From the NCBI GenBank assembly GCA_943787745.1, contig CALSNJ010000005.1, positions 234,455 through 298,454 of the forward strand: 64,000 nt of DNA, read 5' to 3'. The notes beneath the pieces were generated by a model. That model saw only the letters and a program-made list of their open reading frames with translations, ran no database searches and was not told the origin of the DNA. Positions 3,013-53,460 of the stretch are shown here, piece after piece. Numbering within the stretch: position 1 is the stretch's first letter; every line of letters begins with the position of its first letter. The stretch comes from an uncultured Alphaproteobacteria bacterium. Its GTDB lineage: Bacteria > Pseudomonadota > Alphaproteobacteria > UBA6615. Position numbers and translations under genes: made by a program.

Positions 3013-3092
3013 CTGGATTGCCTCGTCGCGAGGCTCCTCGCAATGACAATTTTATCAGACCGTCATTGCGAGCCGCAGGCGAAGCAATCCAG
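3013..3092. repeat. 80-bp palindromic intergenic repeat, copy 1
   Basis: Two inverted arms of about 31 bp, GGATTGC..CGCAATGAC and GTCATTGCG..GCAATCC, joined by a short AT-rich spacer. A second copy in the same orientation lies at 3432-3511 and matches at 76 of 80 positions, so the two copies bracket the GIY-YIG gene as direct repeats. This GTCATTGCGAG type of palindrome is common between genes in alphaproteobacteria. Confidence 0.85.
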
Positions 3093-3109
3093 AGCCGACA
3101 CGCTGATTC

Positions 3110-3431: not shown

Positions 3432-3511
3432 CTGGATTGCTTCGTCGCGATGCTCCTCGCAATGACAACTTTATCAGACCGTCATTGCGAGCCGCAGGCG
3501 AAGCAATCTAG
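3432..3511. repeat. 80-bp palindromic intergenic repeat, copy 2
   Basis: Second copy of the repeat at 3013-3092, same orientation, with four substitutions at repeat positions 10, 20, 38 and 78. It lies between the start of the GIY-YIG gene and the 3' end of the amidase at 3527. Confidence 0.85.
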
Positions 3512-3526
3512 TACCGGGGGGCAGCC

Positions 3527-29033: not shown

Positions 29034-29074
29034 GGTTAGAGGGTTGCTCCGCTACTTGTCGGAAAACAAATGTC

Positions 29075-29156
29075 GTCATTGCGAGCCGAAGGCGAAGCAA
29101 TCCAGGGCGGAGATGCTGGATTGCCTCGTTGGCGCGTTGCGCCGCCTCGCAATGAC
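29075..29156. repeat. GTCATTGCGAG-type palindromic repeat
   Basis: Arms GTCATTGCGAGCC..GCAATCCAG and CTGGATTGCC..CTCGCAATGAC are complementary. It is the same family as the repeats around the GIY-YIG gene but in the opposite arm order, and it abuts the 3' end of fdhA. Confidence 0.8.
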
Positions 29157-37697: not shown

Positions 37698-38052
37698 ATG
37701 CGATTCATGGAACCGACAATCGAACTGCGGGTGGCCGAGCTTCTCGCCTCGCGCCTTTGCCATGACCTGATCAGCCCGGTTGGCGCAGTCAATAGCGGCA
37801 TCGAATTGATGACGGAATTTGGTGATGGCGTGGACAGCGAGAGCATGCAGCTTGTCAGCACCAGTGCAAAACTGGCATCGGAGAAACTCCAGTTTTTCCG
37901 GATTGCCTATGGAAACGCGGGATCGGGCGCAAACATTCCGCTGGGCGATGGAATGCGCCTTATTGAGCCGGTCTGCGCCAATCAGCGCACGACGGTTGTT
38001 CTTGAAGATCACACGGCAGGCGCGTTGCCAGGGCCGGGCGTAGATCATCAAT
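37698..38052 (+). pseudogene. chpT: Histidine phosphotransferase ChpT, 5' part, cut by an insertion sequence
   Basis: About 118 codons of a ChpT-like protein of some 200 residues. MEPTIELRVAELLASRLCHD and LISPVGAVNSGIELM contain the phosphorylated histidine and first helix of the dimeric HPt domain; the C-terminal pseudo-ATPase domain is missing. The frame runs into the IS at 38053. In alphaproteobacteria ChpT passes phosphate from CckA to CtrA, which in Rhodospirillales mainly governs motility. No 3' part exists on the other side of the IS, so the gene is not simply interrupted but deleted. Confidence 0.8.
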
Positions 38053-38126
38053 TGTCCGTCGTCATATAAATTGGAACAACTGGCGGGCTGATCCAAGGGA
38101 GGATCTGGCTCATCTGGTTTAAGATG

Positions 38127-39107
38127 TTAGGCGGCGTATTTGCGGTATTGCAAGCGCCGGGCCTTCATCGTTTTCCGTTTGATCCTTTCCCGTTGTTGTA
38201 AAATGGCTTGGCCCCGCCCGAAGTAGACGTCTGCAGGGGTAAGGTTGTTGATGCTCTCGTGGTAGCGTTGATGGTTGTAATGATCGACGAACGCCTCGAT
38301 CTGCGCCTCAAGATCTGCCGGGAAGAAGTAGTTTTCCAGCAGGATGCGGTTCTTCAGCGTCTGATGCCATCGTTCGATCTTACCCTGAGTTTGCGGATGA
38401 TACGGTGCACCCCTGACGTGCTTCATCTTCTTTTCATCCAGCCATTCCGCCAGCTCACCAGAGACGTAGCTGGAGCCATTGTCCGATAACAGTCTCGGCT
38501 TGTGCACAACATGGGCCTGATCACAGTCCGATGCCTGCAAGGCGAGGTTCAGCGTCTCGGTCACATCGCTGGTCTTCATGGTCGTGCACAGCTTCCAGGC
38601 AATGATATAGCGAGAGTAATCATCAAGGATCGTCGATAAGTACATCCAGCCCCAGCCGATGACCTTCAGATAGGTGAAGTCGGTCTGCCACAGTTGATTG
38701 ATCGCGGTCGTCTTTTCCTTGAACTCATCAGCAGCCTTGATGACGATGAATGCACGGCTGGTAATCAGATCAAGGGATTTAAGCAGGCGATAGACGGAAG
38801 CCTCTGAGACAAAGTAGCTTTCTGTATCAGTGAAGCGTACTGCCAGTTCGCGAGGAGACAGTTCCGGCACATCCAGGGCCAGGGCAATGATCCGCCGGCG
38901 AACGTCATCAGGAATGCGGTTCCAGACCCGCGATGGCCTGGGCGATTGATCTTCCAGGGCCTCCGAACCACCAAGCTGATAGCGGTCATACCAGCGATAA
39001 AACGTGGTGCGGGGGATACCTAGCTTGTCCAGCGTCTGCTTGATGGGCAGGTGAGACTGCTCGACAAGGCGGATGATCTCAAGTTTCTCAGATGCGGGGT
39101 ATCTCAT
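38127..39107 (-). CDS. IS3-family transposase OrfB (DDE integrase core)
   Basis: A 326-residue DDE transposase. The triad lies in QTDFTYL, LSDNGSSYVS and GKIERWHQTL; the N-terminal third is a helix-turn-helix region. Its ATG overlaps the orfA stop as ATGA, and the upstream -1 frame is open back to an A7 run, so an OrfAB fusion by frameshifting is possible. Appears intact. Confidence 0.92.
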   Translation of the reverse strand: MRYPASEKLEIIRLVEQSHLPIKQTLDKLGIPRTTFYRWYDRYQLGGSEALEDQSPRPSRVWNRIPDDVRRRIIALALDVPELSPRELAVRFTDTESYFVSEASVYRLLKSLDLITSRAFIVIKAADEFKEKTTAINQLWQTDFTYLKVIGWGWMYLSTILDDYSRYIIAWKLCTTMKTSDVTETLNLALQASDCDQAHVVHKPRLLSDNGSSYVSGELAEWLDEKKMKHVRGAPYHPQTQGKIERWHQTLKNRILLENYFFPADLEAQIEAFVDHYNHQRYHESINNLTPADVYFGRGQAILQQRERIKRKTMKARRLQYRKYAA

Positions 39108-39478
39108 TCGTCGTCTCCCCCATCCGCGGTCATGCTTTTTTTAAGCAACCTGAGCTCCAGGGTCTGCTCAGCAACAACCTCCTTCAAATCACGTGCTTCA
39201 CGGCGAAGGGCTTGAACCTCGCCCGTAGAAGCCGCACGAGCCGTATCACCCGCAAGTCGACGCTTGCCAGCTTCAAGAAACTCTTTCGACCACTTGTAAT
39301 AAATGCTCTGCGCAATGCCTTCCCGGCGGCATAACTCCGCGATCGTTTCTTCACCACGCAATCCGTCCAGCACAATGCGGATCTTCTCTTCAGCAGAATA
39401 TTGCTTGCGCGTTGCCCGGCGGATGTCCTTGATCGCCTTGGCGGCACCCGTCTGGCGGGTCTGCGATTTCTGTCTCAT
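39104..39478 (-). CDS. IS3-family OrfA (helix-turn-helix)
   Basis: A 124-residue basic protein with a helix-turn-helix (EKIRIVLDGLRGEETIAELC..SIYYKWSKEFL) and a C-terminal leucine-zipper-like helix (LKEVVAEQTLELRLLKKS). The A7 stretch near its end is a candidate slippery site for the -1 shift into orfB. Confidence 0.9.
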   Translation of the reverse strand: MRQKSQTRQTGAAKAIKDIRRATRKQYSAEEKIRIVLDGLRGEETIAELCRREGIAQSIYYKWSKEFLEAGKRRLAGDTARAASTGEVQALRREARDLKEVVAEQTLELRLLKKSMTADGGDDE

Positions 39479-39565
39479 CTTCGTTCCCTTCGGTCACTAC
39501 GATGAGCCAGAAATCCTCCCTTATGAAATCCGGCTAGTTTGTTCCATAGGCGCTGACGTCAGACA

Positions 39566-39694
39566 GCTCTGACATCGATTGTGCATCGTCTGTCTGAGCG
39601 GCGTCGTGACAGTGTGGACCCGCGTCTTGCCTCACTGATTGATGAGGTGGAACTGCGTGCGAAGGTCGAACTTGCCAAGCTTTCGATGATCTAG
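39566..39694 (+). pseudogene. fliX: FliX flagellar assembly regulator, 3' fragment
   Basis: Immediately outside the IS, 42 codons stay open to a TAG: HRLSERRRDSVDPRLASLID followed by EVELRAKVELAKLSMI. The DPRL..ID-EVELRA-VELAKL pattern is the conserved C terminus of FliX, the class II flagellar assembly regulator of alphaproteobacteria. About two thirds of the gene and its start are gone. It is followed by dksA, a neighbour I recall for fliX in Rhodospirillales. Confidence 0.7.
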
Positions 39695-39879
39695 AACGTA
39701 TTTCTGGCGTTCGCTGAGAACAACTTTCAGTATTTTCATATAGTTAAAATTTTCCAATCTGAATTTTCATCACAATTTCTTCACGCAAAGGCGCTTGCCG
39801 GAGTGCGTCGTGGCGCATATATTCCGCGCCCAAAATCAGGGCTCACCGAGATATCGGGAGCCGAAGGAAACAGAACGTC

Positions 39880-40299
39880 ATGGCGTCCAATATGCTTCCA
39901 CCAGATTACACTCCGTCCGACGACGAAGACTTCATGAATCCAATCATGCAGGAGTTCTTTCGGCAGCGGCTCACAGAATGGAAGAGTGAACTTCTGCGTG
40001 AATCCGGCCAGACTCTGCAAAACATGCAGACCACGACCAGCCAGGAGGCAGATATCGCAGACCGGGCTTCGGTCGAAAGCGAACGTGCTCTGGAATTGCG
40101 TACGCGTGACCGTGAACGCAAACTGATCTCCAAGATCGACGACGCGCTGCGCAGTATTGAAACCGGCGATTACGGGTATTGCGAAGATACCGGTGAACCG
40201 ATCGGCGTCCGTCGTTTGATCGCGCGTCCCATTGCAACCCTGAGCATTGAAGCTCAGGAACGCCACGAGCGAATGGAAAAGACCCACCGCGACGACTAG
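39880..40299 (+). CDS. dksA: DksA/TraR-family RNA polymerase-binding factor
   Basis: A 139-residue DksA: coiled-coil with acidic tip residues (ADIADRASVESERALE), then GDYGYCEDTGEPIGVRRLIARPIATLSIEAQ. Only one of the four zinc-finger cysteines is kept, as is usual in alphaproteobacterial DksA, which folds without zinc. It works with ppGpp at RNA polymerase. GAAGGAAAC precedes the ATG. It lies downstream of the fliX remnant. Confidence 0.92.
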   Translation: MASNMLPPDYTPSDDEDFMNPIMQEFFRQRLTEWKSELLRESGQTLQNMQTTTSQEADIADRASVESERALELRTRDRERKLISKIDDALRSIETGDYGYCEDTGEPIGVRRLIARPIATLSIEAQERHERMEKTHRDD

Positions 40300-42790: not shown

Positions 42791-43156
42791 TCAGTCGAGT
42801 GTTTCGAGGAAGGACAGGAGCGCTGCTGTCACTTCCTCGGGCGCTTCCTGCTGAACCCAGTGACCAACGCCTTCGAGAATTCGGCTGATCCGCTGGTCGT
42901 TGCAGTGTCGACCGACATTTTCATAGAGATCGTGGCCCGGAACAAAATGCCGTAAGGCATCCCGGCTGCCACCGATGAAGCAGCTCGGCTGACGGAGCGG
43001 GGTCGCGTTCATTTGCGGCAGGTTGTCATAATCCCGACGGGCGTTTCGGTAACGGTTGAGGGGGCCACGAAACCCACCTGCTTCAAAGTTCGTGACCAGA
43101 TAGTCGATGTCATCTTCACCCAACCAGTAGCCCCCATGTTCTGGGCCATTCCTGAT
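42791..43156 (-). pseudogene. Alpha/beta hydrolase (epoxide hydrolase-like), 3' fragment fused to a transposase
   Basis: About 120 codons of a hydrolase C-terminal half: DDIDYLVTNFEAGGFRGPLN with YRNARRDY (cap and lid), FIGGSRD (acid) and EGVGHWVQQEAPEEV (base histidine), the epoxide-hydrolase ending. The nucleophile and oxyanion half is missing. It is read in frame with the transposase upstream, so one chimeric 384-residue frame spans 42791-43945. The join is near 43157. Confidence 0.8.
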
Positions 43157-43945
43157 TAGAGTTTCTGGAACAGGAGGGCGCATGTTGAGGGCCTGATGTG
43201 GGCGGATGTGATTGTACTGTCTGAGCCACTGGTTGATGACGATCTGGGCCTGCTTTGTTGTGGTGAACCATTCGGCGTTGAGCACCTCGCGGCGCAGAGT
43301 TCCGTTAAATCGTTCGTTGTATCCATTCTCCCAGGGTGACCCGGGATAGATCCGGATAGGCTTGATCCCGACCCTTGCCAACCAGTCCTGCATCGCTTCC
43401 GCGACGAACTCGGGGCCATTGTCGGAACGGATATATTCTGGAGTGCCGTGGCGCATGAGTAGCGGGTAGAGCGCCTCAAGGACATCCTCAGCTCCCATCC
43501 TGGTGCGAACCGCGACCGCTAGAGCCTGACGGGTGTACTCGTCGAGAACTGTCAGCATCTTGTAACTCCGACCGCTGTCGAGCTTGTCGTGTACAAAGTC
43601 GATGCTCCAGACGTGGTTCGGATGGGTTGGCCGCAGCCGTATGATCGAAGCATCCTTGTGGTAGAGCCGTCGGCGCTTCTTGTGCCGTTGCGGCAGTTGA
43701 AGGCCTTCTTCGCGCCAGATCCGCTCAACCTTCTTGTGGTTCACCTTCCAACCTTCGATGCGCAGCAGTTCGGCTATCTTGCGATAGCCGTAGCGCCCGT
43801 ATTGCTTGGCCAGCCGGATCAGGGCCAATCGCAGAGCATCATCATCTCGCCGGGCCGGTCGGTATTGCAGAGAACTGCGCGCCAGTCCGATCACCCGGCA
43901 TGTCCGTCTCTCTGACGTCGCGAGCTTCTGACGCGTATGGATCAC
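43157..43945 (-). CDS. IS3-family transposase OrfB, C-terminally truncated and fused to hydrolase sequence
   Basis: Transposase part of the chimeric frame, about 263 residues: HTH-like start (CRVIGLARSSLQYRP), HTH_21 region (YGYRKIAELLRIEGWKVNHK) and the DDE core with WSIDFVHD, IRSDNGPEF and NGYNERFNG. The catalytic triad is intact but the element ends are lost, so it could act only in trans. The open frame continues into the hydrolase remnant. Confidence 0.85.
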
Positions 43946-43968
43946 GGCCTGACGGACCTGCTCTGTCG

Positions 43969-44247
43969 TCAGGCCCTGGGCTTTAGGTGGGTCAAGCTTT
44001 CCTTGAGGATCAGCTTATCGAGTTCGAGTTCCGCGACGATCTTCTTCAGCCGCACATTCTCTTTCTCAAGAGCGCGAAGTTCCGACAGTTGAGACTTCCC
44101 CATCCCGCCAAACCGCTTGCGCCAGTTGTAGTAAGTGGCATCACTAATACCCACGCCACGACAGGCCGACGGCACGTCACTGCCAGTCGACAGCTTCACC
44201 TCAATCTCACGCAGCAGCTTGAGTATGTCCTCATCCGAATAACGTTT
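43969..44247 (-). pseudogene. IS3-family OrfA, start codon lost
   Basis: Reads RYSDEDILKLLREIEVKLST then ISDATYYNWRKRFGGMG and a leucine-zipper helix (LRALEKENVRLKKIVAELEL) to LKPRA. Homologues begin one or two residues upstream with ATG; here the codon before is TGA from the flanking gene. The in-frame GTG at 44199 is an unlikely real start. Confidence 0.75.
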
Positions 44248-44248
44248 T

Positions 44249-44333
44249 CACCCTGGCGCAGGGCGCCACGCAGCTGGTCGAGAGTATCGGAGGCGGTTTC
44301 CAGGTCCTCACGGACCGCTTCGAGAGTAGGCAT
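44249..44333 (-). pseudogene. 5' fragment of a small gene beside the FhlB-domain gene
   Basis: Starts with ATG three bases after the stop of the FhlB-domain gene and encodes MPTLEAVREDLETASDTLDQ, then LRGALRQGE, before meeting the IS remnant. The helical, acidic start suggests a coiled-coil protein. Its position suggests a flagellar-cluster gene of unknown role. The rest is absent. Confidence 0.55.
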
Positions 44334-44336
44334 GTT

Positions 44337-44681
44337 CTATCCTTCCTGTTCGGAATCGGGATTGTGGGGGGATGCGGCCGTGGCGAGATCGCCATTGGCC
44401 CGGTAGACATAGGTGAGAATTTCGGCGACAGCAGCCAGTGCATGCAGCGGCACATCACAATCGACATCGACGGCGTTGAGCACCTCGACGAGATCAGCGT
44501 CCTCGCGGACTTTCACACCATTGGCAAAGGCCAGTTCGAGGATCTGATCGGCCAGCGCGCCGTCACCCTTCGCGATGATCCGCGCAGGCGCGGACACATC
44601 TCGGCCCGGCGCAGCTTTCAGCGCGACGGCAGAGCTCCGCGTTTTAGACGGGTTTGAAGAGGGTGAGTTCGTGGCAGGCAC
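44337..44681 (-). CDS. FhlB-domain protein (FlhB C-terminal-like, flagellar export)
   Basis: A 114-residue protein. After a Ser/Ala-rich start, residues 30-95 match the cytoplasmic C-terminal domain of FlhB/EscU: RIIAKGDGALADQILELAFA, EDADLVEVLNAVDVDCDVP and AVAEILTYVYR. The NPTH autocleavage site of true FlhB is absent, as in stand-alone FhlB/FlhX proteins. These modulate flagellar type III export switching and usually sit next to fliK; no fliK is present here. Likely an orphan left from a lost flagellar cluster. Confidence 0.8.
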   Translation of the reverse strand: MPATNSPSSNPSKTRSSAVALKAAPGRDVSAPARIIAKGDGALADQILELAFANGVKVREDADLVEVLNAVDVDCDVPLHALAAVAEILTYVYRANGDLATAASPHNPDSEQEG

Positions 44682-49855: not shown

Positions 49856-50080
49856 TTAGTCCGCTGCGCCTTCTTCAGGCGTGTCGACGGCCGGTGAAGG
49901 GTCTGTTTCACCAGCTTGTTCGGCCAGAATTCGCTCATAGACTTCGCGCCGATAGACCGACACATCTTCAGGAAATGTCAGGCCGAGTTTGATCGACTTG
50001 CCGCGGACATCGACCACGGTCACTTCAATGTCGTCATTGATGACGATGGATTCACCGATTTTTCGTGTCAGGTACAGCAT
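49856..50080 (-). CDS. csrA: Carbon storage regulator CsrA
   Basis: A 74-residue CsrA with MLYLTRKIGESIVINDDIEV at the start and IKLGLTFPEDVSVYRREVYE, then an acidic tail. CsrA binds GGA motifs in mRNA leaders and in many bacteria controls flagellin and motility genes. The frame is open to 50113, but the canonical CsrA start is MLYLTRK at 50080. A 8-bp GC stem (50093-50110) lies in its leader. Divergent from flgB, consistent with a former flagellar locus. Confidence 0.92.
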   Translation of the reverse strand: MLYLTRKIGESIVINDDIEVTVVDVRGKSIKLGLTFPEDVSVYRREVYERILAEQAGETDPSPAVDTPEEGAAD

Positions 50081-50269: not shown

Positions 50270-50639
50270 ATGGAATTTAACAGTCTTCCTCTGATGGAGA
50301 TGATGACCAAGAAGATGTCTTGGTTGTCACGCCGTACCGAAGTCATTTCGCAGAATGTCGCCCATGCCGACACGCCGAACTTCAAGGCACGTGACCTCAA
50401 GAAGGTCAGCTTTCAGGATATGGTGCGCAAGGAATCACAAGCCAGTGGCTTTACGCCCCAGCGCACCAATTCCGCCCATCTGGTGGGGCTGACGAGCAAC
50501 ATGCCGTTTAAGGCAGAAAAGGCGCCCGACTCTTTCGAGACATCCATCGACGAAAATGATGTGAGCATCGAACAGCAGCTTACCAAGCTCGGCGAAACCC
50601 AGATGTCATATCAGATGACGTTGAACCTTTATCGCAAGC
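50270..50639 (+). pseudogene. flgB: Flagellar basal-body rod protein FlgB, 3' end replaced by an insertion sequence
   Basis: About 123 codons: MEFNSLPLMEMMTKKMSWLS, then RRTEVISQNVAHADTPNFKA and YQMTLNLYRK. This is nearly all of FlgB, lacking only the last dozen or so residues, which are replaced by IS sequence. FlgB forms part of the proximal rod. The genes that normally follow (flgC, fliE and export genes) are absent; recA follows the IS instead. Confidence 0.88.
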
Positions 50640-50726
50640 TGTCTGACGTCAGCGCCTATGGAACAAATCAGCGGGATTACCTAAGAGAGGATTTCTGGCT
50701 CATCGTAGTGACCGAAGGGAACGCAG

Positions 50727-51101
50727 ATGAGACAGAAATCGCAGACACGTCAGACCGGTGCGGCCAAGGCGATCAAGGACATCCGCCGGGCAACGCGTAA
50801 GCAATACTCGGCAGAAGAAAAGATCCGCATTGTCCTTGATGGGTTGCGTGGCGAAGAGACCATTGCCGAACTTTGCCGTCGTGAAGGCATTGCCCAGAGC
50901 ATCTATTACAAATGGTCGAAGGAGTTTCTGGAAGCTGGGAAGCGCCGGCTTGCCGGCGATACCGCCCGAGCAGCCTCCACGGGCGAGGTGACGGCTCTTC
51001 GTCGCGAGGCGCGTGAGCTGAAAGAAGTTGTTGCCGAGCAGACCCTGGAACTGCGTCTTCTTAAAAAAAGCATGATCGCGGATGGGGGAGACGACGAATG
51101 A
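50727..51101 (+). CDS. IS3-family OrfA (helix-turn-helix)
   Basis: A 124-residue protein nearly identical to OrfA of copy 1. An A7 run at 51063-51069 precedes the stop; the -1 frame from there is open into orfB, consistent with programmed frameshifting to a fused transposase. Confidence 0.9.
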   Translation: MRQKSQTRQTGAAKAIKDIRRATRKQYSAEEKIRIVLDGLRGEETIAELCRREGIAQSIYYKWSKEFLEAGKRRLAGDTARAASTGEVTALRREARELKEVVAEQTLELRLLKKSMIADGGDDE

Positions 51102-52078
51102 GATACCCCGCATCTGAAAAGCTTGAGATCATTCACCTTGTTGAACGTTCTCACCTGCCAATCAAACAGACGCTGGATAAGCTGGGTATTCCCCGCACCA
51201 CGTTTTATCGTTGGTACGATCGCTATCAGCTTGGTGGTCCGGAGGCCCTGGAAGATCAATCGCCCAGGCCATCACGCGTCTGGAATCGTATTCCTGATGA
51301 CGTTCGTCAGAGGATCGTTGACCTGGCCCTGGATGTTCCAGAACTGTCTCCTCGCGAGCTGGCGGTGCGCTTCACAGACACAGAAAACTACTTTGTCTCA
51401 GAAGCTTCCGTCTATCGCCTGCTCAAATCCCTTGATCTGATTACCAGCCCGGCATTCATCGTCATCAAGGCCGCAAATGAGTTCAAAGACAAAACGACGG
51501 CCATCAATCAACTATGGCAGACCGACTTCACTTATCTGAAGGTCATTGGCTGGGGCTGGATGTACCTGTCGACGATCCTTGATGATTACTCGCGTTATAT
51601 CATTGCCTGGAAGCTATGTACGACCATGCAGGCGAGCGATGTTACTGAGACGCTGGAGCTTGCCTTGCAGGCATCAGGCTGTGATCAGGCCCACGTCGCC
51701 CATAAGCCGAGACTGCTGTCGGATAACGGGTCCAGCTACGTCTCTGGCGAACTGGCCGAATGGCTGGGTGACAAGAAAATGGGGCACGTCAGAGGGGCAC
51801 CGTATCATCCGCAAACGCAGGGCAAGATCGAGCGTTGGCACCAGACCCTGAAGAACCGCATCTTGCTGGATAACTACTTCTTTCCCGCCGACCTGGAAGC
51901 GCAGATTGAGGTGTTCGTCGATCACTACAACCATCAGCGATACCACGAGAGCATCAACAATCTCACGCCCGCCGACGTCTACTTCGGGCGTGGCCAGGCC
52001 ATTTTAAAACAGCGGGAAAGGATCAAGGTGAAAACGATGGAGAACCGGCGATTGCAATACCGCAAATACGCCGCTTAA
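51098..52078 (+). CDS. IS3-family transposase OrfB (DDE integrase core)
   Basis: A 326-residue transposase with the same DDE positions as copy 1 (QTDFTYL, LSDNGSSYVS, GKIERWHQTL) and conservative differences elsewhere. Overlaps orfA by ATGA. Appears intact, so this copy could be active. Confidence 0.92.
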   Translation: MRYPASEKLEIIHLVERSHLPIKQTLDKLGIPRTTFYRWYDRYQLGGPEALEDQSPRPSRVWNRIPDDVRQRIVDLALDVPELSPRELAVRFTDTENYFVSEASVYRLLKSLDLITSPAFIVIKAANEFKDKTTAINQLWQTDFTYLKVIGWGWMYLSTILDDYSRYIIAWKLCTTMQASDVTETLELALQASGCDQAHVAHKPRLLSDNGSSYVSGELAEWLGDKKMGHVRGAPYHPQTQGKIERWHQTLKNRILLDNYFFPADLEAQIEVFVDHYNHQRYHESINNLTPADVYFGRGQAILKQRERIKVKTMENRRLQYRKYAA

Positions 52079-52205
52079 TATCTTGAACCAGATGGGCCAG
52101 ATCCTCCTTTAGATCAGACCGCAGATTGTTCCAATTTATATGACGACGGACACGTTGCGACTCACGACACCGGTTTAGTGTCAAATCGCGTATGATAACT
52201 TCCGG

Positions 52206-52238
52206 TTTGCGCCTGTTTCAAAGGCTTTGCGCCTGTTT
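52206..52238. repeat. 13-bp direct repeat in the recA leader
   Basis: TTTGCGCCTGTTT occurs at 52206-52218 and again at 52226-52238, 20 bp apart, roughly two helical turns. It may be promoter-related or a simple duplication. Confidence 0.45.
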
Positions 52239-52246
52239 TGAAATGA

Positions 52247-52261
52247 GAACAAAAAAAGAAC
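52247..52261 (+). promoter_or_regulatory. LexA (SOS) box upstream of recA
   Basis: GAAC-N7-GAAC with N7 all A, the alphaproteobacterial LexA operator, about 95 bp before the recA start. A further GAAC-N7-GTAC follows at 52272-52286 as a weaker possible site. RecA should be derepressed on DNA damage. Confidence 0.85.
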
Positions 52262-52356
52262 TTTACAGCGAGAACAAAACCGGTACATTGACGCTTCAAT
52301 ACGCGGGTTCGAGCCATATGGCGACCGCGAAGACCTTTTGAATACGGGAGCGACCA

Positions 52357-53460
52357 ATGAGCAGCAGCACACAACTTCGCGTCGTCGAGGACAGTATGAA
52401 TAACGAAGACCGCAAAAAGGCGCTGGATGCCGCGCTGGGCCAGATTGAGCGATCCTATGGCAAGGGTTCGATCATGCGTCTGGGCGACGATAACGCTGTC
52501 GAGATTGGATCGATCTCCACCGGTTCTCTTGGGCTCGATATCGCGCTGGGTATTGGGGGTGTTCCCAAGGGCCGGGTGGTTGAAATTTATGGACCGGAAA
52601 GCTCGGGCAAAACAACTCTTGCCCTCCACATCACAGCCGAGGCCCAGAAGACCGGCGGAACATGTGCCTTTATTGATGCCGAGCATGCGCTTGATCCGAC
52701 TTATGCCCGCAAGCTGGGCGTAAATCTTGATGATCTGCTGATTTCCCAGCCGGACAATGGCGAACAGGCACTTGAGATTGCCGATACTCTGGTGCGTTCG
52801 GGCGCGCTCAATGTGCTGGTCGTGGATAGTGTTGCGGCCTTGGTGCCGCGGGCGGAACTCGAAGGCGAAATGGGAGATTCACTTCCAGGTCTTCATGCCC
52901 GCTTGATGAGCCAGGCCCTGCGAAAATTGACCGGGTCCATTGCCAAGTCCGATACGACGGTCATCTTCATCAATCAGATCCGTCACAAGATCGGGGTCAT
53001 GTTTGGCAGCCCCGAGACCACGACGGGCGGCAATGCCCTGAAGTTCTATGCCTCGGTACGTCTTGATATTCGCCGGATCGGTGCCATCAAGGACCGTGAC
53101 GAGGTTGTCGGCAATCAGACCCGCGTCAAGGTCGTAAAGAACAAGCTGGCGCCGCCATTCAAGGTCATCGAATTCGACATCATGTATGGTGAGGGTGTCT
53201 CGAAGATGGGTGAGCTGCTGGATCTGGGGGTTCAGGCCGGGATCATCGACAAGTCAGGCGCATGGTTCTCATACGGAAGTGAACGGATTGGTCAGGGGCG
53301 TGAAAATGCCAAGACCTTCTTCAAGGAAAACCCCGACATGGCAAATGAGATCGAGCGCAAGGTGCGTGAGAATGCCGGGCTTATTTCCGACGCCATGTTG
53401 GGCAAGCCCGAAGAGTTTGCCGAGGACGGAGAGACGCCATCTCCCGCCGAAGGCGGCTGA
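52357..53460 (+). CDS. recA: Recombinase RecA
   Basis: A 367-residue RecA with Walker [20 protein letters not shown], Walker [17 protein letters not shown], loop [20 protein letters not shown] and [17 protein letters not shown]. It forms the strand-exchange filament and triggers LexA cleavage. Normal length and an acidic C terminus. Regulated by the LexA box upstream, which survived the neighbouring IS event. Followed by a strong terminator and alaS, the standard alphaproteobacterial order. Confidence 0.98.

Follow-up and report, generated by a model that had tools for sequence, protein, structure and literature searches.

A truncated flgB joined to recA through an IS3-family element: a probable IS-associated deletion scar within the loss of a flagellar/CtrA island

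The analysed DNA (the window) is a stretch of 64,000 nucleotides, G000:C5:234455-298454, from the genome of an uncultured alphaproteobacterium, G000, that comprises 3.27 Mb in 7 contigs and is 97.9% complete. Toward the right side of the window, the 5' part of flgB is separated from the leader of recA by an insertion sequence (IS). This junction, termed scar C in the following, and its neighbors comprise these features:
49856-50080, minus strand: csrA, intact (TIGR00202), ancestral left neighbor of flgB and in the same position in relatives
50270-50639, plus strand: flgB', codons 1-123 plus one base, cut by the IS (FlgB family match, junction alignment)
50640-52152, plus strand: scar C, complete IS3-family element (isoform 2) between flgB' and the recA leader (terminal repeats, copy comparison, transposase families)
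50727-51101, plus strand: orfA of the IS, HTH_Tnp_1 (Pfam PF01527, E 2e-11)
51098-52078, plus strand: orfB of the IS, DDE transposase, IS481/IS3-like (NCBIfam NF033577 and NF033516)
52153-52356, plus strand: recA leader with the LexA-type box GAACAAAAAAAGAAC at 52247-52261 (aligned with recA leaders of relatives)
52357-53460, plus strand: recA, intact (TIGR02012, E 2e-172)

The ATG of flgB is located at 50270, and the encoded product matched the FlgB family (NCBIfam TIGR01396, E 3e-16). Residues 1-123 are 82% identical to the intact FlgB of G005, a relative from the same genus, and 82-88% identical to the proteins of G005 and G004. The alignment with G005 and G004 continues to base 50639, where IS sequence begins and the last ~14 residues are gone; the initial annotation had described flgB in just this way, as whole but for its last residues. 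On the other side, the sequence from position 52153 onward aligned with the spacer that separates cckA from recA in G004, G001, and G002; in G004, this spacer runs from the cckA stop codon to recA. Homology to relatives thus reached the IS boundary on both sides in the junction alignment. The LexA-type box has the form GAAC-N7-GAAC, a motif for which chance occurrences in 64 kb are not rare, yet its place before recA is conserved in relatives. The initial annotation had already described this box of recA as spared. In a scan of a collection of named genomes, the RecA relatives obtained were no closer than about 82%. The flgB'-IS-recA junction was therefore confirmed, with one correction that concerns the identity of the IS.

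The IS at scar C is 1,513 bp long, carries the imperfect terminal repeats TGTCTGACGTCAGCGCCTATGGAAC and GTTCCAATTTATATGACGACGGACA, and has both ORFs intact. Its ends read TGTCTGACGTCAG... and ...GACGACGGACA. As is characteristic of two-ORF IS3-family elements, orfA and orfB overlap, here by 4 bp (51098-51101). The TG...CA terminal inverted repeats likewise agree with the IS3 family, and the same ends were found in all complete copies and in six of the seven plasmid-borne relatives examined. Plasmids of alphaproteobacteria carry homologues of this IS, and their annotation is likewise IS3 family. G000 contains seven complete copies and a partial one. Five are identical to each other (L003-L007, one of which lies at 38053-39565), and a further complete copy, L002, matches these at 98.5% identity. 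The element at scar C is the sole representative of its isoform in the genome and shares 87-88% DNA identity with the other complete copies. The initial annotation had taken it for a second copy of the same IS, a claim that has to be revised: relative to the copy at 38053-39565, identity is 87% for the DNA, 93% for OrfB, and 98% for OrfA, and the two are related sister isoforms. An origin of the scar C element as a recombinant of two known copies was rejected, as it differs along its whole length (78-92% identity per 150-bp stretch). Left-end fragments ~98-99% identical to the scar C isoform are present in G001 and G004; thus, the isoform circulates in the genus.

The scar C element is flanked by ...CGCAAGC on the left and CGTTGCG... 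on the right. The adjoining triplets, AGC and CGT, differ, and the absence of a target duplication reported earlier was borne out. Such a duplication was missing in 16 of the 17 copies of this IS group examined, that is, in 11 complete copies from three genomes, scar C included, and in five of six plasmid copies; the remaining plasmid-borne copy is flanked by the 10-bp direct repeat accgtgacgg. Because nearly all copies lack a duplication, its absence at scar C is weak evidence, and it was discarded as proof of a deletion. Exchange of flanks between IS copies by inversion was also considered and rejected: one pair of triplets matched (left of L007 and right of L006, GTG), but the reciprocal pair did not.

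The gene order in G005 is csrA-flgB-flgC-fliE-fliQ-fliR-flhB-cckA-recA, and the framework of this region is common to G007, G009, and G011. These four genomes substantiate the statement in the initial annotation that, in related Rhodospirillales, flgC-fliE, export genes, and often cckA lie between flgB and recA. FlgC, FliQ, FliR, and FlhB of G005 were confirmed by Pfam, CckA shows a PAS-HisKA-HATPase-receiver architecture, and fliE was named from its position. According to the coordinates in G005 and G009, the stretch missing at scar C amounts to ~5.8 kb. When the G005 segment was used as a DNA query against the G000 assembly, only flgB', the recA leader, and short kinase-like stretches were matched, and an intact cluster of flgC, fliE, flhB, and cckA with a full flgB elsewhere was not among the matches. 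Searches of the assembly for FlhA, for the C-terminal domain of ChpT, for rod/hook proteins, and for CtrA found none of them; each of these searches gave matches in flagellated relatives or in controls. Rearrangements supported by the six other complete IS copies could in principle have moved the flgC-cckA genes elsewhere. Yet the whole assembly, of which roughly 2% may be missing, holds no flgC-to-cckA segment at the DNA level and no rod/hook protein, FlhA, or CtrA, so that we regard relocation as exceedingly improbable. The earlier proposal of a large deletion is supported by the ~5.8 kb gone relative to G005 and by the absence of the genes from a 97.9%-complete assembly. It changes in two respects: little can be concluded from the missing duplication, and the deletion belongs to a set of three scars, each marked by an IS, that the loss of a whole island left behind.

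The flagellar genes and those of the CckA-ChpT-CtrA relay form an island in flagellated relatives. In G007, it lies on one contig with recA (26.5 kb), cckA, flhB, flgC, flgB, csrA, rod genes, flhA, and ctrA (88.8 kb). In G011, it consists of three blocks on two contigs:
Block A, between NuoEF and dksA, about 43 kb: chpT-ctrA-fliI-flhA...flgE...flgI-fliX
Block B, between an acyl-CoA dehydrogenase gene and csrA: flgH-flgG-flgF-fliL...fliP-fliO-fhlB
Block C, between csrA and recA: flgB to cckA

The island spans at least 62 kb in relatives, compared with an interval of about 14-15 kb from NuoEF to recA in G000. The places of blocks A and B in the window are occupied by the following features:
37698-38052, plus strand: chpT', encoding the N-terminal portion of the phosphotransferase that links CckA to CtrA, and bordering scar A on the left (86% identity with ChpT of G005)
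38053-39565, minus strand: scar A, complete IS copy of isoform 1, one of the five identical copies (copy comparison)
39566-39694, plus strand: fliX', the final ~41 codons, bordering scar A on the right (junction alignment)
43128-44247, minus strand: scar B, an IS3 element of a different type, shortened at each end and now 1,120 bp long instead of about 1,188 bp
44248-44680, minus strand: flagellar relics at scar B, the initial ~31 residues encoded by a small gene of the island, followed by an fhlB-like gene

As in G005, chpT' adjoins NuoEF. The fragment alone gave no Pfam match because the PF10090 domain resides mostly in the lost part. The fliX' remnant is 63-78% identical to the FliX C termini of G011 (PF10768), G009, and G004. 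At scar A, homology to relatives extends to the very edge of the IS next to fliX' and, next to chpT', is clear to within about 10 bases of the IS. In relatives, chpT and fliX are the first and last genes of the ~43-kb block A, with ctrA, fliI, flhA, flgE, and flgI between them. The ORF at 39781-40287 on the minus strand was rejected as a gene; it is the antisense of dksA. At scar B, the IS3 type is represented by about a dozen near-identical longer copies in G000. The fhlB-like gene, whose left end is approximate, encodes the C-terminal domain of FlhB (PF01312, E 1e-9), and G011 possesses the same small gene plus fhlB-like pair next to fliO-fliP near csrA. The other edge of scar B is a truncated alpha/beta-hydrolase gene, named from its sequence and from a like position in G015. 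Each of the three flagellar scars in the window thus contains an IS: chpT'/IS/fliX', hydrolase'/trimmed IS3/flagellar remnant plus fhlB, and flgB'/IS/recA.

IS copies are typical sites of misjoining, and the genome contains four further complete copies identical to the scar A element, which could suggest that the assembly had fused unrelated pieces at a repeat. Such an artefact is very unlikely, as the scar C isoform occurs only once in the genome and its flanks are the correct ancestral neighbors in the right order and orientation. Moreover, the missing genes are found nowhere in the 97.9%-complete assembly, and flhA and ctrA from the same pathway are missing too.

Taken together, scar C is probably an IS-associated deletion scar within the loss of a whole island at three IS-marked junctions. 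The two sequences that directly border the intact IS are collinear in relatives but lie apart there. In the sequence of events that we propose, an IS3-family element would have inserted into the last codons of flgB. The DNA from this element to about 30 bp past the cckA stop, ~5.8 kb with flgC, fliE, fliQ, fliR, flhB, and cckA, would then have been lost through a deletion adjacent to the IS or through its recombination with another copy, two routes that cannot be told apart at scar C. The IS would have stayed behind as the junction, with the recA leader and its LexA-type box spared. The other two blocks of the flagellar/CtrA island would also have been lost, with IS elements at those junctions, so that flagellum and relay both disappeared. 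We infer the causal role of the IS elements and the order of these steps from the observed junctions, missing genes, ancestral gene order, and other scars.

A comparable arrangement was found at another site. IS copy L006 (G000:C2:1303792-1305304) replaces 5.94 kb that are collinear in G009 and G015, and IS-bounded deletion therefore recurs in G000. The 5.94-kb deletion is located between hydantoinase-like and permease-like genes and is unrelated to flagella. Homology extending up to the IS ends, together with the collinear deletions, supports IS-associated deletion.

Against loss driven by the IS stands the finding that, in relatives, the same blocks have disappeared and the junctions examined contain no IS; an IS is consequently not needed for the loss. 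The blocks might accordingly have been lost first by ordinary short-homology deletion, with the IS inserting later into an existing scar. This order of events gains from the IS-free scars in the same blocks of G001, G004, G021, and G019 and from the in-frame flgB'::cckA' and chpT'::fliX' fusions in G021. It is nevertheless unlikely, because the IS would have to hit the junction itself twice, at scars A and C, with flanking homology ending at the IS boundaries. In addition, an IS copy that has nothing to do with flagella also lies at a collinear 5.94-kb deletion. The relatives searched included no sister strain in which flgB carries the IS and the block is intact.

Other genomes of the same two genera are broken at these loci as well, at different points, and the junctions examined contain no IS. 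In G001, chpT extends to residue 106 and is joined to the last 20 residues of fliX, and a cckA remnant is present. Claims of pseudogenes in G001 were left unused, as recA and alaS (L029:1-2300) both contain many frameshifts that are most likely sequencing errors. In G004, 49 residues of chpT and a longer fliX remnant persist, flgB and flgC are present, and cckA is frameshifted with its 3' half retained. In G021, 44 residues of flgB are fused in frame to the cckA receiver, and the chpT start is fused in frame to the fliX end. Further relatives with other breakpoints at these loci are G022, G015, and G019. On a six-gene tree, flagella were lost at least four times in the two genera: in the G000/G001/G002/G004 clade, in G021, in G020 plus G022, and in G015/G019. 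This count assumes no regain, several of the genomes are incomplete, and support for the pair of G015 and G019 is low (64).

Details of the G021 fusions were recorded separately. At L033:13116-13529, next to recA, flgB codons 1-44 are fused to the CckA receiver domain, and this reading frame could encode a small free receiver protein. The in-frame fusion of the chpT start with the fliX end lies at about L033:7435-7500.

Neither of the deletions in G000 and G004 lies within the other, and their final forms therefore arose separately. Since its congener G004 keeps flgB, flgC, and the 3' half of cckA, the scar C deletion postdates the split of G000 and G004. For flgB', dN/dS was 0.07-0.08 relative to G005 and G004, with dS near or above 1 and thus close to saturation, and the ratio gave no sign of neutral decay. 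The flgB break is therefore probably recent on the dS scale and independent of the loss in G004. On balance, we lean toward the view that the island, with the CckA-ChpT-CtrA relay at its edges, was lost many times, recently and independently, within one family, and separately in G000 and G004.

In G000, cckA is absent, chpT is truncated, and ctrA is absent, while all three are present in the same-genus G005. The relay is dispensable in Ruegeria KLH11, as is CtrA in Rhodospirillum centenum and Magnetospirillum magneticum, and CtrA controls flagellar genes in every order studied (PMC3692519, PMC8116508); control of motility may be the primordial role of CtrA (PMC8116508). The losses in G000 fit the view in the literature that motility is the main function served by the CtrA relay in early-branching alphaproteobacteria. 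Those earlier cases are laboratory mutants, whereas the present losses occurred in nature, and the relay genes border the flagellar island. In Caulobacteraceae, convergent and independent losses of flagellar motility have been inferred from genomes, many of them metagenome-assembled (PMC12700997). Our case resembles these in that independent losses are read from alphaproteobacterial genomes, but here the core relay CckA-ChpT-CtrA was lost with the flagellum, and physical scars are readable. G012 (L038, L084) presents the reverse of G000: cckA, chpT, and ctrA are kept, and no FlhA or rod/hook proteins were found.

IS-associated deletion itself is a known kind of event. For IS150, also of the IS3 family, adjacent deletions without target duplication have been documented in the E. 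coli long-term evolution experiment (PMC11708052). As there, a deletion of kilobase size has an IS3-family element at its junction, and a target duplication is missing. In contrast to IS150, the scar in G000 comes from a natural genome without an ancestor or time series, and IS-IS recombination is an additional possible route. What makes the present case interesting is that three scars occur together, that the CtrA relay was lost at the same time, and that losses recur around G000. From the scars, one could read how a motility island of >60 kb and the relay that controls it were dismantled. If the proposed history is correct, natural relay-null genomes stand beside relatives with the relay but without flagella, and the family offers a natural series for studying roles of CtrA besides motility and the point at which CtrA becomes dispensable.

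As a minor observation, a short dispersed repeat (CGTCATTGCGAGCCGCAGGCGAAGCAATCCAG) is present in the window at 3013-3097, 3432-3516, and 29074-29118.
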